From Burkholderia aenigmatica (GTDB lineage: Bacteria > Pseudomonadota > Gammaproteobacteria > Burkholderiales > Burkholderiaceae): a stretch of 64,000 bases of DNA. Position 1 is the first letter of the stretch; each line of letters begins with the position of its first letter. Position numbers and translations under genes: made by a program. The stretch is from the NCBI RefSeq assembly GCF_902499175.1, contig NZ_CABVQC010000014.1, positions 1-64,000 on the forward strand, read 5' to 3'. The notes below the pieces were generated by a model. That model did not search any database and was not told the DNA's origin. It saw only the letters and a program-made list of their open reading frames with translations. This document shows, one piece after another, positions 6,876 to 23,563 of this stretch.

Positions 6876-7778
6876 ATGCTCGACCTGCGCCGCCTTCGCT
6901 ATTTCGTGGTCGTTGCCGACGAACTGCATTTCGGGCGTGCCGCGCTACGCCTGCGCGTCGCGCAGCCGCCGCTGACCCGCCACATCGCCGCGCTGGAAAG
7001 CGAACTCGGCGTGCGGCTGTTCGAGCGCTCGACCCGTGCGGTGCGGCTGACGCCCGACGGCGAGCGATTCCTCGAGCATGCACGCAACGTGGTCAGCGCG
7101 GCTGCCGAGGCCGAGGCGAGCGCGCGCAAGCTGCCGCAGGGCATCGCCGGGCGCATCGTGATCGGCTACGCGAGCTCGATTCCGATGTCCGACACGTTCC
7201 CGGACATCGTCCGTCAGGCGAGCCGCACGATGCCGGACGTCGAGCTCGCCTTCCGCGAAGCGTCGACCGCCAGTCAGCGCCAGCAGATCGCGGACGGCGC
7301 GATGGACGTCGGGTTCGGCTGGTCGTGGGCGCGTGCGCCCGGTGCAGCGGTGCCGTCGTTCGTCGTCGCCCGCGAACCGCTCGTCGCGGCCGTGCCGGCC
7401 GGCAATCCGCTTTCGGAACGCACGCACGTCGACTTTGCCGCGCTCGCCGGCGAAACCTTCGTGACCTTCCCGCCCGGCTTCGGCTCCGCGCTGACGACGG
7501 CGCTCGACGATCTGTGCGCGCAGGCCGGTTTCGCGCCGCGCATCGGGCCGACCGCATCGCAGATCACGACGCTCGTGTCGCTGGTGGCCGCCGAGCGCGG
7601 CATCGCGATCGTGCCGGGTTTCACCGCGACGCTGCAACGCCCGGGCGTCACCTACGTACCGCTGAACGACACGCGCCGGGTCGAACTGATCGTGTCGTGG
7701 CGCGAGCCGTTTGCATCCGCATGCATCGAACGTTTCGTCGCCCTCGCCCGGTCACTCGAACCGCCTGCGTCGGCCTGA
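6876..7778 (+). CDS. LysR-family transcriptional regulator
   Basis: A 300-residue LysR-type regulator starting at MLDLRRLRYFVVVADELHFG. The N-terminal winged helix contains AALRLRVAQPPLTRHIAALE and LFERSTRAVRLT, the hallmark helix-turn-helix of the family. The rest is a periplasmic-binding-protein-like effector domain starting near GRIVIGY. An upstream ATG at 6828 would add 16 residues but leaves a poor N-terminus. It faces the MFS gene across a short intergenic region, so the likely target is that exporter and its own promoter. The effector is unknown. Confidence 0.92.
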   Translation: MLDLRRLRYFVVVADELHFGRAALRLRVAQPPLTRHIAALESELGVRLFERSTRAVRLTPDGERFLEHARNVVSAAAEAEASARKLPQGIAGRIVIGYASSIPMSDTFPDIVRQASRTMPDVELAFREASTASQRQQIADGAMDVGFGWSWARAPGAAVPSFVVAREPLVAAVPAGNPLSERTHVDFAALAGETFVTFPPGFGSALTTALDDLCAQAGFAPRIGPTASQITTLVSLVAAERGIAIVPGFTATLQRPGVTYVPLNDTRRVELIVSWREPFASACIERFVALARSLEPPASA

Positions 7779-8016
7779 CCGGCGCGCGCGCCGTACATCG
7801 GCACGAGGTGGAAAAATCGCTCGCCCGGCGTTGCGCAACGGTGTCGAATCGGCAAGATCGTTACGTACCGGGAATCAAATAACAAAAAGAACTCCTGACT
7901 ATTCCCTATCGGGCGCGAATCCTCCAAGATGAGCACGCCGTCGGGCCGGCACACCCGGTTGCCTGCCGGGCGGCGATACGCGGGCCAGCGTATCTCTCTT
8001 CCACTTGGAGAGCACC

Positions 8017-9372
8017 ATGCACAACAATGTGTTGCCGTGTTTCATTCCGCGCGCGCTTGCCGCGGGTTGCCTGCTCGCCGTCGCGAGCGTGTCCCAGGGC
8101 GCCGGCGTCTATGCGCCCTATGTCGACGTGACGCTCTATCCGACGCCGCTCGTCGACCAGATCGGCGTCCGGCAAGGCATCCAGCAATTCACGCTCGCGT
8201 TCGTGGTCGCGGGCAGCGGCTGTATGCCGTCATGGGGCGGCGTGCAACCGATTGGCAATGGCGCGAGCGGCGGCCTGCTGACCGCGCTGTCGACGTCGAT
8301 CGCGAGCTATCGCGCGAAAGGCGGCGAAGTCGCCGTGTCGTTCGGCGGCGCGAACGGCACCCCGCTGATGCAGGCGTGCTCGACGGTCCCCGCGCTGGCA
8401 AGCGCGTACCAGACCGTGATCGACACGTACGGCCTTACGCACATCGACTTCGACATCGAAGGCGTGTCGCAACTCGACACGGCCGCAGTCGCGCGCAACT
8501 TCCAGGCGGTCACGCAATTGCAGGCGAGCTATGCGGCGAAAGGCAAGCCGCTGCACGTGACGCTGACGCTGCCGACGATGCCGACCGGGCTTACGCAGGA
8601 CGGCCTGAACATCGTCAATGCGGCGATTTCGAACCAGACCGTGTTCGATGCGGTGAACGTGATGGCGATGGACTACGGCCCCGCGAATCTCGACATGGGC
8701 GCGGCCGCGATCAGCGCCGCGCAGGCGCTCTATTCGCAACTCGATACGGCCTTCAAGTCGGCCGGCCAGCCGAAGACCAATGCCCAGCTCTGGCAGATGG
8801 TCGGCGTCACGCCGATGATCGGCGTGAACGACGTGCAGGGCGAAACCTTCACGCTCGCGAATGCGCAGAGCGTGCTGAACGCGGCGGTCGCCAACGGCTA
8901 CGGCTTCTTCGGCAACTGGTCGGTCGGCCGCGATCAGGCGTGCCCGTCCGGCGGCACCTATGCGTCGCCGACCTGCTCGGGCGTCGCGCAGCAGCCGTAC
9001 GCGTTCGCGACGATCTTCAAGCAGCTCGACGGCAAGTGGGGCACGGGCGTCACGCAGGATCCGAACTACGGCGGCGGCTCAAACGGCGGCACGCCGCAGC
9101 CGGGCGCACCCTGGGCGGCCGGCCAGGTCTATACGGCCGGCGCGACGGTCACCTACCAGGGCACCACGTATCAGGCGCAATGGTGGACGCAGGGCGACGT
9201 GCCCGGTCAGGCTGCGGTGTGGAAGGCGGTCGGAGGCGGCACCGCCACGTGGTCGGCGACCACCGCGTATTCAGGCGGCACCTGCGTGATGTACCAGGGC
9301 GCGAAATACTGCGCGAAATGGTGGACGCAAGGCGACAACCCGAGTGCGGGCGGTGTGTGGGTGAAGTCGTGA
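8017..9372 (+). CDS. Secreted GH18 chitinase with two C-terminal chitin-binding modules
   Basis: 451 residues from the ATG at 8017, preceded by a TGGAG ribosome-binding site; an in-frame TTG at 8005 overlaps that site and is rejected. A signal peptide spans about residues 1-32, ending in ASVSQGAG. The glycosyl hydrolase 18 barrel follows, with THIDFDIEG at 141-149 giving the DxDxE catalytic motif (D144, D146, E148 as acid/base), and later VMAMDYG. After a Gly/Asn/Pro linker near residue 350 come two related carbohydrate-binding modules of the CBM5/12 kind, each with a WWTQGD core (YQAQWWTQGD and YCAKWWTQGD). It probably hydrolyses chitin outside the cell after Sec and type II export. The 238 nt before it hold no other gene. 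Confidence 0.92.
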   Translation: MHNNVLPCFIPRALAAGCLLAVASVSQGAGVYAPYVDVTLYPTPLVDQIGVRQGIQQFTLAFVVAGSGCMPSWGGVQPIGNGASGGLLTALSTSIASYRAKGGEVAVSFGGANGTPLMQACSTVPALASAYQTVIDTYGLTHIDFDIEGVSQLDTAAVARNFQAVTQLQASYAAKGKPLHVTLTLPTMPTGLTQDGLNIVNAAISNQTVFDAVNVMAMDYGPANLDMGAAAISAAQALYSQLDTAFKSAGQPKTNAQLWQMVGVTPMIGVNDVQGETFTLANAQSVLNAAVANGYGFFGNWSVGRDQACPSGGTYASPTCSGVAQQPYAFATIFKQLDGKWGTGVTQDPNYGGGSNGGTPQPGAPWAAGQVYTAGATVTYQGTTYQAQWWTQGDVPGQAAVWKAVGGGTATWSATTAYSGGTCVMYQGAKYCAKWWTQGDNPSAGGVWVKS

Positions 9373-9477
9373 TGCCGCGTAGCGGCCGTCGCTAGGCCAG
9401 CGCGTCAGGGGCCGTTCACGACGATCGCAACCGGATCGCCAGCGGACGGCTCGCAGGCCGGCGCGCCCTGCCCGCCG

Positions 9478-10221
9478 TCAGTCGCGCGCGTGTTCGGCCA
9501 GCAGCCTGGCCTTCGCATCGACGAGCAGCGCCGCATGCGTATCGCGATGCTGGCGGATCCGCTCGGTCGGCCCGACCACCGACAACCCGTACCAGTCGCC
9601 GTCGAGCGTCAGCGCGACCGCGATCGCCGACAGCTCGGGCGCGCTCTCGCCGAAGTTCTCGGCCCAGCCGAGTTCGCGAAACCCGGCGGTTTGCGCGACG
9701 AGCGTGGGCAGGTCTGCCACGGTCGAATCAGTGAAGCGCTCGAACGGCAACTGCGCGCCGAGCGCCTGCTGCGCGTCGCCGGCCAGTTCCGCGAAAATCG
9801 CCTTGCCGATCGAGTTCGCATGCAGCGGGCGCAGCTCGCCCGGCGCACGCGTATAGCGGATCGCCTGCTCCGATTCGACGACGTCGAGGTACGTGACCGA
9901 CACGCCCTGGATCTTGCCGAGCACGGCCGTCTCGCGGCTCGCGTCGCGCAGCGCGACCAGATGCGGATGGACGATGTCGACGACCGGATCCGTCGCGTCG
10001 ATCGCGGCGGCGATCGTCTGCAGGCGGCGCGTCGGGTAGTAGCCGCCGCGCTTGCGCACTTCGTACAGGTAGCCGCGGCTCACGAGCGTGCGCGCCATCG
10101 CGAGGCAGCTCGACGCCGGCACATTGAGCAGGCGCGCGAGTTCGGTGAGCGGCAGCGGCCGCCGTTCGGCGGCGAACAGCTCGAACAGGTCGAGCGTGCG
10201 GGCAACGAGTTTGACGTCCAT
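9478..10221 (-). CDS. IclR-family transcriptional regulator
   Basis: 247 residues with an N-terminal winged helix-turn-helix (LDLFELFAAERRPLPLTELA followed by LLNVPASSCLAMARTLVSRG) and a C-terminal IclR effector domain containing RPLHANSIGKAIFAEL and the usual GWAEN...ISAIAV-like stretch (here ELSAIAVALTL). It is the last gene of a four-gene leftward set with an acyl-CoA dehydrogenase, a CitMHS transporter and a family III CoA-transferase. It therefore most likely controls that catabolic operon in response to the substrate or its CoA ester. Candidate operator sequences lie upstream of the first gene, around 14256-14304. Confidence 0.9.
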   Translation of the reverse strand: MDVKLVARTLDLFELFAAERRPLPLTELARLLNVPASSCLAMARTLVSRGYLYEVRKRGGYYPTRRLQTIAAAIDATDPVVDIVHPHLVALRDASRETAVLGKIQGVSVTYLDVVESEQAIRYTRAPGELRPLHANSIGKAIFAELAGDAQQALGAQLPFERFTDSTVADLPTLVAQTAGFRELGWAENFGESAPELSAIAVALTLDGDWYGLSVVGPTERIRQHRDTHAALLVDAKARLLAEHARD

Positions 10222-10281
10222 GACGAGCGCTTGATTCGGAACGGGAAACCGCGCACCGGGCCGGCCGCCGGGTCGGACCGG

Positions 10282-11448
10282 TCAGTACGACTTCGGCAGC
10301 CCGAGCACCTTCTCCGCGATGTAGCACAGGATCAGTTGCGGGCTCACGGGCGCGAGCCTCGGAATCATACACTCGCGCAGGTAGCGCTCGACATGGTATT
10401 CCTTCGCGTAGCCCATCCCGCCGTGCGTCGCGACCGCCGTCTGACATGCGTGGAACGCGGCTTCCGCGCCGAGGTATTTCGCGGCGTTCGCTTCCGCGCC
10501 GCACGACTGCCCCGCGTCGTAGCGCGTCGCGGCCTTCATCACCATCAGCCACGAGGCCTCGAGCTGCATCCACGCCAGCGCGAGCGGATGCTGGATCGAC
10601 TGGTTCTGCCCGATCGGCCGGCCGAACACAACGCGCTCGCACGCGTACTGCGTCGCGCGGCGCAGCGCGGCCTGCCCGATCCCGATCGCCTCCGCGGCGA
10701 TCAGGATCCGCTCGGGATTCAGCCCGTGCAGCAAATAGCGGAAGCCGTCGCCTTCGTGGCCGATCAGGTCGCCTTCCGGCACGCGCAGGTTGTCGATGAA
10801 CAGCATGTTCGAATCGACCGCCTTGCGGCCCATCTTCTCGATCTCGCGCACCTCGACGCGCGACCGGTCGAGATCCGTATAGAACAGGCTCAGCCCGTCG
10901 GTCGGCTTCGCGACCTGGTCGAGCGGCGTCGTGCGCGCGATGATCAGCATCTTGTTCGCGACCTGCGCGGTCGAGATCCAGATCTTGCGCCCGCTCAGCA
11001 CGTAGTGGTCACCGTCGCGGCGTGCCTGCGTGGTCAGGTGCGTGGTGTCGAGCCCCGCGTCGGGTTCCGTCACCGCGAAGCACGCCTTGTCGCGCCCGGC
11101 GATCAGCGGCGGCAGGAAGCGCGCCTTCTGCGCGTCGTTGCCGAATACCTGCACCGGATTCAGCCCGAAGATGTTCATGTGGACGGCCGACGCACCGGAC
11201 AGGCCGGCACCCGATGCGCTGATCGTGCGCATCATCAGCGCGGCCTCGGTCATCCCGAGCCCGGCGCCGCCGTAAGCCGGATCCATCGCGATGCCGAGCC
11301 AGCCGGCCTCGGCGAGCGCCGCGTGGAAATCGGCCGGAAACCCGCCCGCGCGATCGCGTTCGAGCCAGTAGTCGTCGCCGAAGCGCGCGCAGATTTTCTC
11401 GATCGCGCTTTCGATCGCGCGCTGGTCATCGGTCAGGTCAAACTGCAT
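10282..11448 (-). CDS. Acyl-CoA dehydrogenase
   Basis: 388-residue flavoprotein of normal family length. It shows CFAVTEPDAGLDT (FAD/substrate motif, about 123-135), WISTAQVANKML, and THGGMGYAKEYHVERYLREC near the C-terminus. The position of the MCAD-type catalytic glutamate (usually YEGT) is replaced by LAPVSP around residues 365-370. Instead, NPERILIA puts a glutamate at residue 246, the site used as base by isovaleryl- and long-chain acyl-CoA dehydrogenases. It likely oxidises a short or branched acyl-CoA produced by the neighbouring CoA-transferase. It lies between the transporter and the IclR gene on the same strand. Confidence 0.9.
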   Translation of the reverse strand: MQFDLTDDQRAIESAIEKICARFGDDYWLERDRAGGFPADFHAALAEAGWLGIAMDPAYGGAGLGMTEAALMMRTISASGAGLSGASAVHMNIFGLNPVQVFGNDAQKARFLPPLIAGRDKACFAVTEPDAGLDTTHLTTQARRDGDHYVLSGRKIWISTAQVANKMLIIARTTPLDQVAKPTDGLSLFYTDLDRSRVEVREIEKMGRKAVDSNMLFIDNLRVPEGDLIGHEGDGFRYLLHGLNPERILIAAEAIGIGQAALRRATQYACERVVFGRPIGQNQSIQHPLALAWMQLEASWLMVMKAATRYDAGQSCGAEANAAKYLGAEAAFHACQTAVATHGGMGYAKEYHVERYLRECMIPRLAPVSPQLILCYIAEKVLGLPKSY

Positions 11449-11578: not shown

Positions 11579-12880
11579 TCACAACGGAAATACCCCGACG
11601 ATCACGGCGGCGAACACCATCAGCACCGTGGCGGCAAACAGGAACGGAATCGTGAATTTCTGGTGCTCGGCGAGCTCGACACCGGTCAGGCCGACGATCA
11701 GGAACGTCGCGGGCGTGAGCGGGCTCACCGGGAAACCCGTCGTCATCTGGCCGAGCAGCGCGGCCTGTGCCATCTGGATCGGCGGCACACCCAGCAGCTT
11801 CGCGCTTTCCGCGAGCACCGGCAGCACGCCGAAGTAGAACGAATCGGGGTCGAACAGCAGGCTGAGCGGCATCGACAGCAGCCCGAGCACGAACGGCATG
11901 TGGCGCGCGTGCTCGACCGGCACGTGCGCGACGACCACGTCCGCCATCGCCTTCAGCATCCCGGTGCCGGACATGATGCCGGTGAACGCGCCGGCCGCGA
12001 GCAGCACGCTCGCCATCATCAGCGCGGCCTTGGCATGCGCGTCGATCCGCTCGCGCTGGGCCTGCACGTCCGGGTAATTGATCACGAGCGCGGCGACCGT
12101 GCCGAGCATGAACATCACCATCGGGTCGACGATGCCGGACACGAGCGTGACGAGCACGACGAGCGTCAGCACGAGATTGATCCGGAAGCGTTCCGGCCGG
12201 CGCAATGCGCGCTCGGCATCGGTCAGTGCGCGCGGCGCGATCGCGAGCGACGCCGCACCGGCACGATCGAGCCCGAGCCGCTTCGCCTCGCGCACGCCGA
12301 GCACGTATGCGGTGCCGAACACGAACACGAGCCCGACGATCTGCACCGGAATCATCGGCATGAAGATCGCGGAACCGGGAATATGCAGCGCCGCCGACGC
12401 GCGCAGCATCGGCCCGACCCACGGCAGGAAATTGACGCCGGCCGCCATCGATGCGACGCACGCGAGGATGCGGCGATCCATCCCGAGCCGCGTATAGAGC
12501 GGCATCATCGCGGGCAGCGTGACGAGAAACGTGACGGCGCCCGAACCGTCGAGATGAATCAGCAGCGCGAGCAGCGCCGAGCCCATCACGATCCGCGGCG
12601 GATGGCAGCCGATCACGCGCAGCACGCCCGCGATGATCGGGTCGAGCATGCCGGCGTCCGTGAGGATTCCGAAAAAAAGAATCGCAAAAACGAACATCCC
12701 GGCGATCGGGCCGATGTTCTGGACGCCGTGCACGATGAACTTGCCGGTCGCAAGCCCGAAACCGGCTGCGAGCGACGCGGCCACCGGCACGACGATCAGC
12801 GCAACGAGCGGCGACAGCCGCTTCGTGATGATCAGGCCGAACAGCGCGACGATGGCGATCGCGCCGATCCATGCAAGCAT
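11579..12880 (-). CDS. CitMHS-family divalent-metal citrate/tricarboxylate transporter
   Basis: 433 residues with many hydrophobic helices and the family signature HLDGSGAVTFLVTLPAMMPL around residues 110-130, followed by RLGMDRR. CitMHS proteins import citrate or related carboxylates as a metal complex in symport with protons. A stretch of DPDSFYFGVLPVL is also typical of this family. Its location between a CoA-transferase and an acyl-CoA dehydrogenase suggests uptake of a di- or tricarboxylate that is then activated to a CoA ester. The actual substrate is not determined by the sequence. Confidence 0.88.
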   Translation of the reverse strand: MLAWIGAIAIVALFGLIITKRLSPLVALIVVPVAASLAAGFGLATGKFIVHGVQNIGPIAGMFVFAILFFGILTDAGMLDPIIAGVLRVIGCHPPRIVMGSALLALLIHLDGSGAVTFLVTLPAMMPLYTRLGMDRRILACVASMAAGVNFLPWVGPMLRASAALHIPGSAIFMPMIPVQIVGLVFVFGTAYVLGVREAKRLGLDRAGAASLAIAPRALTDAERALRRPERFRINLVLTLVVLVTLVSGIVDPMVMFMLGTVAALVINYPDVQAQRERIDAHAKAALMMASVLLAAGAFTGIMSGTGMLKAMADVVVAHVPVEHARHMPFVLGLLSMPLSLLFDPDSFYFGVLPVLAESAKLLGVPPIQMAQAALLGQMTTGFPVSPLTPATFLIVGLTGVELAEHQKFTIPFLFAATVLMVFAAVIVGVFPL

Positions 12881-16908: not shown

Positions 16909-17517
16909 TCAGCCGGCGCGGCCCGTGTACAGCGCGTCGGCCGTCACCCACTGCGCGCCCCAGGCCGCGGCCAGCCGCGCGCCCTGCCCGATCCGCACGG
17001 CCGCATCGTCGAAGTCGACGAACACGACGTGATCGGCCGCCGCGGGTTTCGCGGGTATCTCGCGCGTGCGTCCGTCGGACAGCACCCACAGCCAGCGCTG
17101 CTTGCCGGGCTCGCGCCGCGCCGCGTGCGCGAGCAATTGCGCGGCGGCCGCGATGCCGTCCGCGAGCGGCGTGCCGCCGCCACCTTCGACGGGTTCGAGC
17201 CAGCGCGCATTCCACCAGCGCGGCACGGCCGGGCCGAAGCGGCGCGCGGCGCCATTGCCGCCGAAACAGATCAGCGCGGTTTCGACACGGTCGCGCGCGG
17301 CCTGGTCGAAATACGCGACGATCAGCCCCTTCGCCAGTGCGAGCCGCTCGTGCGACAGCATCGACGCCGAACAATCGAGCACGAAGCAATGCAGCGCGTC
17401 CGGCGTGCCGGCCCGTTTCCGGAAGCGCAGATGGCCGCGATGCAGCGGGCCGCCGCGTTTCGCGGCAAGCGTTGCCGGCCATGCAACGGTGGTGCCGGCA
17501 CGTGCCGTGCCCGGCAC
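16909..17517 (-). CDS. VWA-domain part of the cobaltochelatase ChlD-like subunit, probably expressed by -1 frameshift
   Basis: 202 residues from the GTG at 17517, but this start has no ribosome-binding site. The frame is open upstream all the way into the ATPase gene, with no other start codon between them. The domain shows a complete MIDAS metal site: DCSAS, GGGTPLADG and VLSDGRTR. It is the von Willebrand A domain normally found at the C-terminus of BchD/ChlD or CobT. A -1 shift at the A7 run at 17598-17592 would fuse it to the ATPase and give a protein of about 584 residues, close to ChlD length. It would then act with CobN to insert cobalt. Independent initiation at GTG remains possible. 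Confidence 0.75.
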   Translation of the reverse strand: MPGTARAGTTVAWPATLAAKRGGPLHRGHLRFRKRAGTPDALHCFVLDCSASMLSHERLALAKGLIVAYFDQAARDRVETALICFGGNGAARRFGPAVPRWWNARWLEPVEGGGGTPLADGIAAAAQLLAHAARREPGKQRWLWVLSDGRTREIPAKPAAADHVVFVDFDDAAVRIGQGARLAAAWGAQWVTADALYTGRAG

Positions 17518-17537
17518 GCGCGCGGCTGCGCCTGATT

Positions 17538-17598
17538 GCCATCGAGGACCGCGAACGGTGTTCGCAGCGGCGCCGGCTCGATGGCTCAGCGTTTTTTT
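17538..17598 (-). other. Predicted programmed -1 ribosomal frameshift element (slippery A7 plus stem-loop)
   Basis: On the minus strand the ATPase ends CTA AAA AAA CGC TGA, so the heptamer A AAA AAA (17598-17592) is in the X XXY YYZ phase. Six nt later a perfect 9-bp stem begins: GCCATCGAG (17585-17577) pairs with CTCGATGGC (17546-17538). It encloses a second hairpin, GCGAAC-ACC-GTTCGC (17565-17551). After a -1 slip the next codons are ACG CTG AGC, exactly the frame of the VWA domain. Slippery site, spacer and stem have textbook geometry. A similar scheme has been described for chlD-type cobalt chelatase genes; expression here is inferred. Confidence 0.75.
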
Positions 17599-18662
17599 AG
17601 CGGCAGCGGCACCACGCCTTTCACGTCGTGCAGCCCGGCCGGTTCGGGCGGCAGGTAGCCCCAGTCGCCCTGCGCTGCCGCGGCATCGTTCTGCGCGGCG
17701 CCCGATGGATCGTCGGGGCGCTCGCGCGCATCGGGCGGCGTGTGACCGTCGCGTTCGTCGTTTTTCTGCGGCGCTCGGGACGATGGCGGCGTCCCCGCAT
17801 GACGCCGGTGCCGCAGCACCGCATCGGCCACGCGCTCCACATGCGACACCGTCACCGCATCGGCCTGCTCCAGTGCGGCGAGCGCGCGCGCCGCGCGCAG
17901 CATCACGAGATCGGCACGCAGCCCGTCAACGGCCGCGTCGATGCACAGCGCGCTGACGCGCGCATGGACGGCATCGTCGAAATCGAGCGCCGCCAGCCGT
18001 GCACGCGCCGCGTGAATCCGGTCGCCGAGTTCGCGCTGTGCGGATACATGGCCTGCGCGGAACGCGTCCGGATCGAGATCGAACGCGAGCCGCGCCTTCA
18101 CGATCCGCTCGCGCTGTGCGGCGTCGAAGCAATTCTCCAGTTCGACCATCAACCCGAAGCGGTCGAGCAACTGCGGACGCAGCTCGCCCTCCTCCGGATT
18201 CATCGTCCCGATCAGCACGAAGCGCGCATCGTGCGCGTGCGACACGCCATCGCGCTCGACGATGTTCACGCCGCTCGCGGCGACGTCGAGCAGCGTATCG
18301 ACGAGCCCGTCGGCGAGCAGGTTCACTTCGTCGACATACAGCACGCCGAGATGCGCCCTCGCGAGCAGGCCCGGCCGGAAGCGCACGCCATTTTCAGCGA
18401 GGGCATGCGCGAGATCGAGCGTACCGGTCACCTGCTCGTCGCTCGCCGACAGCGGCAGCGTGACGAACTGCCCTTCGGGCAACAGCTCCGCGAGGCCGCG
18501 CGCCGCGGTCGATTTCGCGGTGCCGCGCGGCCCGCTGACGAGCACGCCGCCGAGCGACGGGTCGATCGCGGCGAGCAGCAGCGCCTGCTGCAATGCGTCC
18601 TGCGCAACGAGCGCCGCAAACGGAAACACCGCGCGGGCGCGGTGCAGCGTCGGATCGGTCAT
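17586..18662 (-). CDS. Magnesium/cobalt-chelatase ATPase subunit (ChlI/BchI-like), small subunit
   Basis: 358 residues from the ATG at 18662 (MTDPTLHRARAVFPF), overlapping the cobN stop as ATGA. AAA+ motifs are present: Walker A GPRGTAKSTAARGL, Walker B GVLYVDEVNLL, and IGTMNPEEGELRPQLLDRFG (sensor 1 and arginine finger region). After residue 300 comes a Pro/Asp-rich acidic linker, the type found between AAA+ and VWA domains in ChlD. It ends LPLKKR at a slippery A7, suggesting that a fraction of ribosomes continue into the VWA frame. It powers cobalt insertion by CobN. Genes for CobS/CobT are not seen here. Confidence 0.88.
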   Translation of the reverse strand: MTDPTLHRARAVFPFAALVAQDALQQALLLAAIDPSLGGVLVSGPRGTAKSTAARGLAELLPEGQFVTLPLSASDEQVTGTLDLAHALAENGVRFRPGLLARAHLGVLYVDEVNLLADGLVDTLLDVAASGVNIVERDGVSHAHDARFVLIGTMNPEEGELRPQLLDRFGLMVELENCFDAAQRERIVKARLAFDLDPDAFRAGHVSAQRELGDRIHAARARLAALDFDDAVHARVSALCIDAAVDGLRADLVMLRAARALAALEQADAVTVSHVERVADAVLRHRRHAGTPPSSRAPQKNDERDGHTPPDARERPDDPSGAAQNDAAAAQGDWGYLPPEPAGLHDVKGVVPLPLKKR

Positions 18663-21600
18663 CGCCGTCCCCCTTCCTGGAGTTGTTCGCTCGCGAGCCA
18701 GACCGCTTCGATCCGTTCGCGATAGTCGCCCGGCTGTTGCCACAGGCCGCGCTGCATCGCCTCGACGAAGCGTTCGCAGATGCCGTGCAGCGCCTTCGGA
18801 TTGTGCCGTTCGAGGAACGCGCGGGTGGCGTCGTCGAACAGGTACGCGTCGGCGACGAGCGCGTACTGGTGGTCGGACAGCACGCGCGCGGTCGCGTCAT
18901 AGCCGTACAGGTAGTCGACGGTCGCGGCCAGCTCGGCCGCGCCCTTGTAACCATGGCGCTTCACGCCGTCGAGCCATTTCGGGTTGACGACGCGCGAGCG
19001 GATCACGCGCGCAATTTCCTCGCGCAGCGTGCGCATCTTCGGCGCGACCGGGTTCGCGTGGTCGCCGTGGTAGATGCTCGGCTGCTGCCCGGACAGGTGC
19101 CGCACGGCTGCGGTCATCCCGCCCTGGAACTGGTAGTAGTCGTTCGAATCGAGGATGTCGTGTTCGCGGCTGTCCTGGTTCTGCACGACGACGTCGATCG
19201 TCGCGAGCCGCTCGCCGAACACGTCGGCCGCCGCGTCGCCCGCGCTGTTCTGCGCATACGCATGGCCGCCCCACTGGCGGTAGGCATCGGCGAGATCGGC
19301 GTCGGTCTGCCAGCGGCGCTGGTCGATCAGGTCCTGCAGGCCCGCGCCGTAGCTGCCCGGCCGTGCGCCGAACACACGCCAGCCGGCGCGGCGCCGCGCT
19401 TCGTCCGGTGCCACGCCCTGCGCGACCCACTTCGCGCGCTCGCGCTCGATGCGCGCGCGGATCGGGTTCAGCTCCTCGGGCTCGTCGAGTGCGGCCACCG
19501 CCTGCACGGCCGCGTCGAACAGGTGCATCAGGTTCGGGAACGCGTCTCGGAAGAAGCCCGACACGCGCAGCGTCACGTCGATGCGCGGCCGGTCGAAGAT
19601 CTCGATCGGCAGGATCTCGAAGTCGGTCACGCGGTGGCTGCCGTGCGCCCATTTCGGCCGCACGCCGAGCAGCGCGAACGCCTGCGCGATGTCGTCGCCG
19701 CCCGTGCGCATCGTCGCCGTGCCCCAGACCGACAGGCCGATCGCGCGCGGATAGTCGCCATGATCCTGCAGATGGCGTTCGATCAGTTGCTGTGCGGATT
19801 TCAGGCCGAGCGACCACGCCGCCTGCGTCGGTACCGCGCGCGTGTCGACCGAGTAGAAATTGCGACCGGTCGGCAGCACGTCGGGCCGGCCGCGCGATGG
19901 CGAGCCGCTCGGCCCCGGCGGCACGAAGCGGCCGTCGAGCCCGCGCAGCAGCTGACGCATTTCCTCGCCGCCACACGCGTCGAGCGCGGGCAGCAGCATC
20001 TCACGGACACGCTCGATCACGGCGAGCGTGTGCGGCCAGTCGCCGGGAGGCGTCGCATCGGTACCTGCGTTACCGCCGTCGGCTGCGCACAGTCCGTCCA
20101 GCCACTGCTGCGCAAGCCGTTCGAGCCGCTCGCGCGTATCGCCCGCATGGCGCCACGGCGATGCGTCGAGCGCCTGCAGGATCGCCGGGCGCGGGCCGAC
20201 CCACGGCGCGGCCCAGTCGGCCGCGAGCGGATCGAAGTCATCGCCGAGTGCGAGATCGCGCGCGAGCGCGCCGATCAGTCCTGCGCGTGCTCCCTTGCCG
20301 TCGCCGACCGGAAAGCGCGCGAGCGCGAGCAGCGTGTCGCGCCGCTGACGATCGGCCGGCGACGCGCCGAACACGTGCAGCCCGTCGCGGATCTGCGCTT
20401 CCTTCAATTCGCACAGCCACGCATCGACACGCGTGAGCAGCGCATCCTCGTCGCCCGTATCGCGCGGCGGCGACACGCTCAGTTCGTCGTGCAACCGGTG
20501 TTCGGCGATCGTCGCGAGGATCGTCTTGCGCAGCAGCTTCGCGCGCCGCCCGTCGACCATCAGCGCTTCGTAGTATTCGTCGACCTGCCGCTCGAGATCC
20601 TGCAGCGGGCCGTAGTTTTCCGCGCGCGTGAGCGGCGGCATCAGGTGATCGATGATCACCGCCTGCGCGCGACGCTTCGCCTGGCTGCCCTCGCCCGGAT
20701 CGTTGACAATGAACGGATACAGGTGCGGCAGCGGCCCGAGCGTCAGGTCGGGCCAGCACGCGTCGGACAGCGCGACGCTCTTGCCTGGCAGCCATTCCAG
20801 GTTGCCGTGCTTGCCGAGGTGGATCACCGCGTCGATGCGATACGCGTCGCGCAGCCAGAAATAGAACGCGAGATACGCGTGCGGCGGCACGAGATCCGCA
20901 TCGTGGTAGCTCGCGTAGTCGTTCTCGCCGCGCGAGCGCGACGGCTGGATGCCGACGAACACGTTGCCGGCACGCCAGCCGGCGATCGTGAAGCGCCCTT
21001 GCCGCAGCGTCGGATCGGCTTCGGGCGGACCCCAGCGCTCGTTCAGCGCGTCGCGCACGGCCGCCGGCAGCCGCGCGAAACGGGCGACGTAGTCGGCCAG
21101 CGGGAAGCTCTGGAATGCGGGGCGCAACGCATGCACGGCCGCGTCGTTGGTCACGCCTTCGGTGAGCCGCGCGATCAGCGCGTCACCGTCGGGCGGCAGG
21201 TCGGCCACCGCGTAGCCCGCGTCGCGCAGCGCCGCGAGCACGCGCAGCGCGGACGCCGGCGTGTCGAGCCCGACGCCGTTGCCGATCCGACCTTCGCTTT
21301 GCGGATAGTTCGCGAGAATCAGCGCGACGCGCTTGTCGGCGTTGTCGAGCGTGCGCAGCCGGCACCAGCCGTGCGCGAGCGCCGCGACGAACGCGATCCG
21401 CTCGGCGTCCGGCTGGTAGCGCACGACGTCGACCTCGGTATGCGGGCAGCGGTACGCGAGCCCCTTGAAGCTCACCGCGCGCGTGACAATGCGCCCGTCG
21501 ACCTCGGGCAGCGCGATGTGCATCGCGATATCGCGCGCATGCAGGCCCTGGTTGTCGGCCACCCACGCGTCGCGATTGCCGCCGGACAGGATCACCTGCA

Positions 21601-22468
21601 GGACCGGCGCGTCGCCGGCGAGCACGTCGTGCTCGGGGCTGTCGATCGCGCCGGCCGCGAACGCGGTCGTGTTCAGCACGAGCGCGACGTCGTGCGTGTC
21701 GCAGAGCTGCGTGATGACTTCGCGGCTCACCGCGTCCTTCAGCGACGTGACCGCGATCGGCAGCGGATTCAGCCCTTCGGCGACGAGCGCATCGGCCAGC
21801 GCGTCGAACACGGCCGTGTTCGCGGCCTGCCAGTGCGCACGATAGAACAGGATCGCGACGACGGGCGCGCCGGGCGTCCAGCGCGGCCGCCAGTCGTCGA
21901 CGCTCGCGCGGTCGCGCGCCAGGTGATACAGCGCGGCGGCCGGCAGCGGGCGCGGCAGTTCGGGCTCTTCGCCGAACCCGAGCGTATGGAATGCAATGCT
22001 GCGCAGCAGCGCCTCGGCGTTGTGCACGCCGCCTTCACGCAGGTAGCGCCACCACAGCCGGCACAGGTCGGGCGCGATCGTGCTCTTCGCGACGAGGTTC
22101 GGGTCTTCCTGCAGGTCGCCCGAGAACATCGCGAGCTGCTGCTTGCGTTTCGACGCGAGCGACACGGCCTGCTCGATCCCGTACGGCCAGTACGCCTCGC
22201 CGCCGAGATGATCGATCACGACCGACTTCGCATGCTGCAGCACGTCGTCGACGTAGAAGTCGACCGACGCCGGTTGCCGCAGGAACGTGACGTTCGCGAG
22301 CCGCACGCTCGGGAAGCCGGCCGGCAGGTGCGGCACGACGCTCGCCAGCAGCGACAGTGTCGTGTCGGCCGAGCTCAGGATCACGATGTCGGCCGGCTGC
22401 TGGTCGATCCGGACGACGCCCTGCGTGTCGTCGACGAAGCCGCCCGGCGTGGTGCGCAGCAAATGCAT
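18659..22468 (-). CDS. cobN: Cobaltochelatase large subunit CobN
   Basis: 1269 residues, the usual length for CobN/BchH-type subunits, starting MHLLRTTPGGFVDD. It carries characteristic segments such as ILFYRAHWQAANTAVFDALA near residue 210, HLGKHGNLEWLPGKSVALS around 550 (metal/tetrapyrrole binding region) and IGLSVWGTATMRTGGDDIAQ around 910. CobN binds hydrogenobyrinic acid a,c-diamide and inserts cobalt with ATP supplied by the adjacent AAA+/VWA subunit. It follows cobW by 6 nt and overlaps the ATPase gene by 4 nt, so cobW-cobN-ATPase-VWA are one transcript controlled by the riboswitch at 23911-24142. Confidence 0.97.
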   Translation of the reverse strand: MHLLRTTPGGFVDDTQGVVRIDQQPADIVILSSADTTLSLLASVVPHLPAGFPSVRLANVTFLRQPASVDFYVDDVLQHAKSVVIDHLGGEAYWPYGIEQAVSLASKRKQQLAMFSGDLQEDPNLVAKSTIAPDLCRLWWRYLREGGVHNAEALLRSIAFHTLGFGEEPELPRPLPAAALYHLARDRASVDDWRPRWTPGAPVVAILFYRAHWQAANTAVFDALADALVAEGLNPLPIAVTSLKDAVSREVITQLCDTHDVALVLNTTAFAAGAIDSPEHDVLAGDAPVLQVILSGGNRDAWVADNQGLHARDIAMHIALPEVDGRIVTRAVSFKGLAYRCPHTEVDVVRYQPDAERIAFVAALAHGWCRLRTLDNADKRVALILANYPQSEGRIGNGVGLDTPASALRVLAALRDAGYAVADLPPDGDALIARLTEGVTNDAAVHALRPAFQSFPLADYVARFARLPAAVRDALNERWGPPEADPTLRQGRFTIAGWRAGNVFVGIQPSRSRGENDYASYHDADLVPPHAYLAFYFWLRDAYRIDAVIHLGKHGNLEWLPGKSVALSDACWPDLTLGPLPHLYPFIVNDPGEGSQAKRRAQAVIIDHLMPPLTRAENYGPLQDLERQVDEYYEALMVDGRRAKLLRKTILATIAEHRLHDELSVSPPRDTGDEDALLTRVDAWLCELKEAQIRDGLHVFGASPADRQRRDTLLALARFPVGDGKGARAGLIGALARDLALGDDFDPLAADWAAPWVGPRPAILQALDASPWRHAGDTRERLERLAQQWLDGLCAADGGNAGTDATPPGDWPHTLAVIERVREMLLPALDACGGEEMRQLLRGLDGRFVPPGPSGSPSRGRPDVLPTGRNFYSVDTRAVPTQAAWSLGLKSAQQLIERHLQDHGDYPRAIGLSVWGTATMRTGGDDIAQAFALLGVRPKWAHGSHRVTDFEILPIEIFDRPRIDVTLRVSGFFRDAFPNLMHLFDAAVQAVAALDEPEELNPIRARIERERAKWVAQGVAPDEARRRAGWRVFGARPGSYGAGLQDLIDQRRWQTDADLADAYRQWGGHAYAQNSAGDAAADVFGERLATIDVVVQNQDSREHDILDSNDYYQFQGGMTAAVRHLSGQQPSIYHGDHANPVAPKMRTLREEIARVIRSRVVNPKWLDGVKRHGYKGAAELAATVDYLYGYDATARVLSDHQYALVADAYLFDDATRAFLERHNPKALHGICERFVEAMQRGLWQQPGDYRERIEAVWLASEQLQEGGRR

Positions 22469-22474
22469 CGTGCG

Positions 22475-23563
22475 TTACGCCTGTTGCGGTTCGGCCGCGC
22501 ACGCGGCGTCGAACGCGCGTTGCAGCGCGGCCGCGTCGAGATCCTCGCCGATCAGCACGAAGCGGCTCGCGCGCGTTTCGCCGTCCTGCCAGCGACGGTC
22601 GAAATAGCTGTCGAAGCGGCGGCCGACGCCCTGGATCACGAGGCGCATCGGCGCGCCGGGCAGCGCGGCGAAGCCTTTCGCGCGATAGATCGTGTGCGCT
22701 TCGACGACACGCTGCAGCGCGGCGATCGTCGCTTCGCGCGTGCCGGCGTCGCCCGACACGACGACCGAGTCGAAATCGTCGTGATGGTGATCGTGATCAC
22801 CGTCGTCGGCCGAGCCGTGATGGTCGTGACGCAGGTGGATCGTTTCTTCCGATGCCGATTCGAGACCGAGCAGCATCGCGAGATCGAGCTCGCCGCGCGT
22901 CGCGCGCACGATCTTCACCTGCGGCGGGATTTCGTCGCGAATCGCGGTTTCGATCTGCGCGAACGCTGCGTCGCCGACGAGATCGGCCTTGTTCACGATC
23001 ACGAGATCGGCGGACGACAGTTGATCGGCGAACAGCTCGTGCAGCGGCGATTCATGATCGAGGTTCGGATCGGCGCGGCGCTGCGCGTCGACGGCCTGCG
23101 GGTTTTCCGCGAACTGGCCGCTTGCGGCGGCCGGCCCGTCGACCACGGTCACGACCGCGTCGACTGTGAAGCTGTTGCGGATCGTCGGCCAGTTGAACGC
23201 CTGCACGAGCGGCTTCGGCAGCGCGAGGCCCGAGGTTTCGATCAGCACGTGGTCGATGTCCGCACGCCGCTCGACGAGCGCTTCCATCACCGGATAGAAC
23301 TCTTCCTGCACGGTGCAGCACAGGCAGCCGTTCGCGAGTTCGTAGAGCTGGCCCGACGCTTCGCCCTGCGCCCCCTCGGCATCCTCGCAGCCGATGCCGC
23401 AGCCCTTGAGGATTTCGCCGTCGATGCCGAGCTCGCCGAATTCGTTGACGATCACCGCGATGCGGCGGCCTTCGGCGTGCTGCAGGATGTGGCGCATCAG
23501 CGTCGTCTTGCCGCTGCCGAGAAAGCCCGTGACGATCGTGACGGGAAGCTTGCGCATGGTCAT
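22475..23563 (-). CDS. cobW: CobW GTPase, cobalt-handling protein
   Basis: 362 residues with GFLGSGKTT (residues 13-21, P-loop), the CLCC metal-binding motif at about 80-83, IETSGLALP and NKADLV (guanine specificity). The His/Asp-rich stretch near residues 243-263 contains HDHH and HDHHHDD. This is the COG0523 metallochaperone family; CobW is thought to deliver Co(II) to the CobN chelatase. The ATG at 23563 follows GTAGGTCC-type weak ribosome-binding sequence. Its place directly before cobN and after a cobalamin riboswitch supports CobW rather than a zinc-related paralogue. Confidence 0.95.
   Translation of the reverse strand: MTMRKLPVTIVTGFLGSGKTTLMRHILQHAEGRRIAVIVNEFGELGIDGEILKGCGIGCEDAEGAQGEASGQLYELANGCLCCTVQEEFYPVMEALVERRADIDHVLIETSGLALPKPLVQAFNWPTIRNSFTVDAVVTVVDGPAAASGQFAENPQAVDAQRRADPNLDHESPLHELFADQLSSADLVIVNKADLVGDAAFAQIETAIRDEIPPQVKIVRATRGELDLAMLLGLESASEETIHLRHDHHGSADDGDHDHHHDDFDSVVVSGDAGTREATIAALQRVVEAHTIYRAKGFAALPGAPMRLVIQGVGRRFDSYFDRRWQDGETRASRFVLIGEDLDAAALQRAFDAACAAEPQQA

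Follow-up and report, generated by a model that had tools for sequence, protein, structure and literature searches.

The window analysed here, a stretch of 64,000 nucleotides of Burkholderia aenigmatica DNA, contains a chlD-type cobaltochelatase gene in which, as judged from comparative sequence analysis, a programmed -1 ribosomal frameshift very probably gives rise to two predicted subunits of 358 and 584 residues that would work together with CobN. In the mechanism we propose, ribosomes that stay in frame would stop at the TGA codon at 17588-17586 and release a 358-residue ChlI-like AAA+ ATPase as the small subunit. A fraction of the ribosomes would pause at a stem 6 nt past the heptamer A AAA AAA, move back one base on it and enter the VWA frame, which would yield a 584-residue ATPase-linker-VWA protein as the medium subunit. 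Together with CobN as the large subunit, both would then insert cobalt during aerobic B12 synthesis. We infer that the slip takes place in B. aenigmatica with some efficiency, that two proteins are made and that they act jointly with CobN. Genes of the predicted kind have been described before, Burkholderia being one of the genera named for them. It is a clear and well-conserved case, in which the reading as two genes conceals one gene with two products, and its covarying stems and fixed distance between heptamer and stop codon could recommend it as a clean model system for -1 frameshifting in bacteria.

Organisation of the locus and identity of the encoded proteins

The genes and RNA elements of the locus lie on the minus strand. 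The frame coding for the ATPase (17589..18662, 358 codons, start codon ATG, stop codon TGA at 17586-17588) is directly preceded by cobN (18659..22468), which codes for the large cobaltochelatase subunit (TIGR02257, 1581 bits) and whose stop codon overlaps the ATPase start as ATGA; cobW (22475..23563) lies upstream of cobN. The ATPase frame ends with CTA AAA AAA CGC TGA, and the heptamer A AAA AAA within it (17592..17598), 3 nt 5' of the stop codon, is in phase for -1 slippage when read from 17598 to 17592. A slip by one base leads into the VWA frame, which is open from 17592 to 16912 (227 codons, stop codon at 16909-16911), so that the predicted product has 357+227 = 584 residues. The phase of the heptamer, the entry into the VWA frame and the sizes of the two products had been claimed in a sequence-only reading of this DNA and were confirmed; its boundary at 16909 is right as to the region where the VWA part ends and takes in the VWA stop codon.

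The ATPase half matched Mg_chelatase, AAA_5 and AAA_lid_2, with TIGR02442 ('putative cobaltochelatase') and BchI/ChlI as the closest models, and an AAA+ core was recognised with both Pfam and NCBIfam. It carries GPRGTAKS at position 44 and YVDEVN at position 109, which we take to be Walker A and B. The VWA half matched VWA_2 with 30.9 bits (cut-off 27) and also TIGR02442 and BchD/ChlD in their C-terminal parts. It contains DCSAS at 73, GGGGTP at 137 and LSDGR at 171, presumably the MIDAS residues, in agreement with the intact MIDAS that had been noted before. Scored separately against TIGR02442, the ATPase half reached 375.8 bits over part of the model and the VWA half 67.7 bits, the cut-off of 779.45 being that for the whole protein. 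The two products had been likened to CobS/CobT or ChlI/ChlD subunits. The models matched and the position beside cobN bear out the ChlI/ChlD type; the CobS/CobT type is not borne out, as no CobS_N, CobT or CobT_C domain was found among the matches of either half. The linker, described earlier as acidic, is only mildly so (10 D/E versus 6 K/R/H in a 49-residue stretch).

CobN, whose presence and linkage are expected of an aerobic cobaltochelatase, accompanies the gene closely. The VWA half and CobN were found in the same 63 of 65 genomes of the genus, both being absent from G015 and from the 82%-complete G057. When the flanks of 143 loci (duplicates included) were inspected, CobN was present in 134, in 133 of these upstream on the same strand, and in 90 of the 134 its stop codon overlaps the ATPase start; the nine loci lacking a flanking CobN are eight in-frame fusions, discussed below, and one locus on a short contig (L060). 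A second ChlI-type place was not found in the B. aenigmatica genome with TIGR02030.

Conservation of the slippery heptamer

The window holds two A7 runs where 0.22 would be expected, the one at the junction (17592-17598, minus strand) and a plus-strand one at 12672-12678, and 4 of 100 shuffled windows contain at least two such runs. By these counts the heptamer alone is not decisive, and it is its conservation in the right phase that decides. We compared 143 loci, namely 80 named relatives and 63 loci of the genus (window included). The named set comprises the best 80 of at least 546 relatives and is therefore biased towards close relatives, the closest named among these 80 including B. arboris with 92% in the ATPase half. 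Both halves are present in 141 of the 143 loci. They stand in the -1 relation in 133, are fused in frame in eight and are in no case in the +1 relation; the remaining two have no VWA match (for the named set alone, 70, eight and two, respectively). Six named loci duplicate genomes of the genus set, which leaves 127 distinct junctions among the 133. Of the two loci with no VWA match, L077 lies on a contig that stops short of the junction. The other, L022 from Cupriavidus basilensis, has the A7 site, and in the 9 kb examined no VWA match lies downstream of it.

In every one of the 133 loci with the -1 relation, the ATPase frame ends with A AAA AAA NNN stop (87 loci) or A AAA AAG NNN stop (46 loci), and hence with an X XXY YYZ heptamer as known for programmed -1 frameshifting (17598-17592 in the window). 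Conservation of the A7 run in relatives had been suggested as a check on the sequence-only reading, and the heptamer class is indeed kept throughout. A7 predominates in the genus (61 loci, with A6G in two), and the named set contains 26 A7 and 44 A6G sites. The site occurs in Burkholderia, Paraburkholderia, Caballeronia, Trinickia, Pandoraea and Cupriavidus and also in Variovorax, Hydrogenophaga, Rhodoferax, Denitromonas and Pseudomonas, among others.

A covarying RNA structure follows the heptamer

As had been claimed, a perfect 9-bp stem begins 6 nt past the heptamer, formed by GCCATCGAG (17577..17585, read from 17585) and CTCGATGGC (17538..17546, read from 17546), and it encloses a second hairpin with arms at 17560..17568 and 17548..17556. 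The segment 17600-17530 folds with -29.7 kcal/mol (z -3.35), and 2 of 200 shuffled sequences were at least as stable. Among the loci listed, many of the Burkholderia type rank only in the middle of 25 control windows when the 85 nt that follow the heptamer are compared by fold energy. Fold energy fails to discriminate in these G+C-rich genes, and the evidence for a structure comes from register and covariation. A search of 17300-17800 against Rfam gave no match at E values up to 1.

Across the 73 distinct, ungapped segments of the A7 class, 585 of 657 cells of the outer stem are paired in a fixed register; the 72 unpaired cells belong chiefly to loci with another loop length. Sliding one arm by 1 to 3 positions reduced the number of paired cells to 173-324 of 657, and none of 500 shuffles reached 585, a count that is not a probability, as the sequences are related. 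Double-sided changes were seen at four of the nine outer pairs, for example from GCCATCGAG/CTCGATGGC to GCCACCGGG/CCCGGTGGC, and at eight of the nine pairs of the inner hairpin, in which 531 of 650 cells are paired. Loci of the A6G class, mostly Pseudomonas, have a different hairpin of up to 14 bp, which starts 5 nt after the heptamer and shows 529 of 644 cells paired and double-sided changes at 8 of 14 pairs. Within the genus, nine pairs in register are found in 57 of 63 loci; five retain the stem around a longer loop and one is masked by N. Conservation of the stem, which had been proposed as a further check, thus holds, with compensatory changes, and both classes have a covarying structure a few nucleotides after the site.

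Alternative explanations for the arrangement

One might argue that the locus consists of two separate genes, with the VWA protein starting on its own, for example at the GTG codon at 17515..17517, by translational coupling to the ATPase stop codon. A GTG is found at the same place in 37 of the 63 genus loci, and the available text of Antonov et al. (2013; PMC3711429) names initiation at the downstream gene, next to frameshifting, for some of the experiments. Against this, 8 of the 63 genus loci and 5 of 64 others (127 loci in this part of the analysis, window included) have no ATG, GTG or TTG in the VWA frame between the heptamer and the VWA match. In the window, GTG 17517 is the only such codon from 60 nt upstream of the slip site to the VWA match, and its best Shine-Dalgarno match is AGG, which agrees with the earlier claim that this sole local start has no ribosome-binding site. 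With the motifs tried, Shine-Dalgarno matches of at least 4 bases precede some of the VWA starts outside the genus and none of those within it. A start for internal initiation is not a constant feature of the genus. A bias towards third codon positions of the -1 frame, right behind the heptamer, also speaks against a separate start. No -1-frame stop codon lies between the heptamer and the VWA match in any of the 63 genus loci or the 64 others, whereas the other two frames have stops over the same stretch in 6 and 1 of the 63 and in 26 and 41 of the 64, respectively; as these frames are nearly as open in the genus, the contrast rests on the wider set. Over the 57 nt that directly follow the slip and precede the commonest start positions, 50 ungapped genus loci show 247 differences to the window, distributed as 73, 30 and 144 over -1-frame codon positions 1, 2 and 3; from 57 to 75 nt there is little such bias (44, 39 and 54). 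Two independent genes would moreover leave the invariant heptamer and the covarying stem unexplained, and we give this reading a very small chance.

A general concern is that the gene is broken or that the homopolymer was sequenced wrongly, since single-base errors are common in such runs. The same -1 arrangement is, however, seen in 133 loci, which come from several genera and many assemblies, with none in the +1 relation, and third-position bias is found in both halves, which leaves this explanation practically no chance. Slippage of RNA polymerase on the A7 run could instead produce a fraction of mRNAs with a changed number of A residues, making ribosomal frameshifting unnecessary. In favour of this, the A7 run is a homopolymer, and the transcription of poly-A runs is open to slippage. 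However, the heptamer is A AAA AAG in 46 of the 133 loci, with just six consecutive A residues and as a classic ribosomal -1 site, and in most loci the stem begins 5-6 nt past the heptamer, as for a ribosome stimulator. The efficiency increased with run length in the cassettes described in the available parts of PMC3711429, which would also fit polymerase slippage; we regard this explanation as very unlikely and favour programmed -1 ribosomal frameshifting.

Relation to known frameshifted genes

The -1 frameshift site of E. coli dnaX likewise has an A AAA AAG heptamer with a downstream stem; the slip there leads to a shorter product, whereas the slip proposed here leads to a longer one. An article by Antonov in MBE from 2020 is said to treat fs-chlD of the aerobic cobalt chelatase and to tie frameshifted chelatase genes to cobalt chelatase. 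The accessible portions of Antonov et al. (2013, NAR; PMC3711429) describe a cluster of 23 -1 frameshifted magnesium chelatase genes from six genera, including Pseudomonas, Burkholderia and Delftia, and state that such genes are annotated as two adjacent genes. The earlier remark that similar frameshifting has been described in chlD-type genes is therefore correct. In E. coli, frameshifting amounted to 63, 40 and 10% with three chelatase cassettes, the value for A_AAA_AAA being 10%. The gene described here resembles these in the -1 slip at poly-A, including A_AAA_AAA, and no difference is apparent from those portions of the paper. Likewise, in the sections available of Kuznetsov et al. (2022; PMC9227772), a single fs-chlD gene provides the small as well as the medium subunit of cobalt chelatase and has slippery sites with downstream RNA structures; the gene in the window, with its slippery site and stem, is predicted to do the same. 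In stage 8 of that work, as far as its available text goes, fs-chlD is the source of both subunits, whereas in the genus the 63 genomes with the frameshifted gene include 18 that also carry a CobS-CobT-like pair.

A CobS-CobT-like pair and in-frame fusions

The B. aenigmatica genome itself encodes such a pair on another contig (L191, about 7524-9202; for locus L192, the coordinates of the pair are 7796-10581), and the frameshifted gene is therefore not the sole possible source of a small subunit. On one side, the pair is flanked by genes coding for an IclR regulator, a DMSO-reductase-like molybdopterin enzyme, and iron-sulfur and DmsC proteins, and on the other side by genes for a TPP enzyme and a phosphotransacetylase. 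The TPP enzyme of G015 was identified as Xsc, sulfoacetaldehyde acetyltransferase (1079.7 bits). The pair is present in 19 of the 65 genus genomes, with CobS matches of 531.8-540 bits; the NCBI cut-off of 558.55 is passed in none of the 65. The CobT of G015 scores 277 against an NCBI cut-off of 759, and the Pfam domains CobS_N, CobT and CobT_C exceed their cut-offs wherever they were scanned. The TPP enzyme (E values up to 1e-150) occurs in 20 of the 65 genomes, which are the 19 with the pair and G057, where Xsc was found and the pair was not. The molybdopterin enzyme occurs in 26 genomes, all 19 pair-bearing ones among them. Conversely, G015 has the pair and neither CobN nor the frameshifted gene. 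By its co-occurrence with Xsc and by the situation in G015, the pair tracks the sulfonate genes and not cobN, which favours the frameshifted gene as the partner of CobN, with exchange between the two systems still conceivable. We tentatively speculate, at somewhat less than even probability, that CobN is served by the frameshifted chlD and that the CobS-CobT-type pair has been taken over by sulfoacetaldehyde (taurine-type) degradation as an AAA+/VWA machine, perhaps activating the molybdopterin oxidoreductase. In the excerpts of the literature available to us, CobS and CobT together with sulfoacetaldehyde came up only in work on methanogens. If the pair has indeed been taken over in this way, a CobS-CobT pair should not automatically be taken for a B12 enzyme, and its link to CobN would need to be checked first.

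In three genomes of the genus (G024, G025 and G063), cobN matches fall into two separate pieces, and cobN may be interrupted or misassembled there.

The eight in-frame ATPase-VWA fusions (L026, L030, L033, L054, L065, L072, L074 and L075) come from two Neptuniibacter, two Psychromonas, a Motiliproteus, a Marinomonas, an alphaproteobacterial MAG and a Granulosicoccus MAG. A reverse frameshift of the dnaX kind, giving the short product from the fused gene, was looked for, and no site is common to the set; the junction of L074 contains an A9 run, followed after 3 codons by a stop in the -1 frame, and the linker of L026 contains CCCTTTT, followed by such a stop after 8 codons. A separate ChlI, which might have been expected in these genomes, was not found; no second ChlI-type place scores above 33 bits in any of the eight. 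None of the fused genes has CobN in its flank; CobN is present elsewhere in seven of the eight genomes, six of which have it on the same contig as the fusion, and a strong CobS match is found in three of the eight. By these counts, a separate small subunit may be dispensable in some cases.
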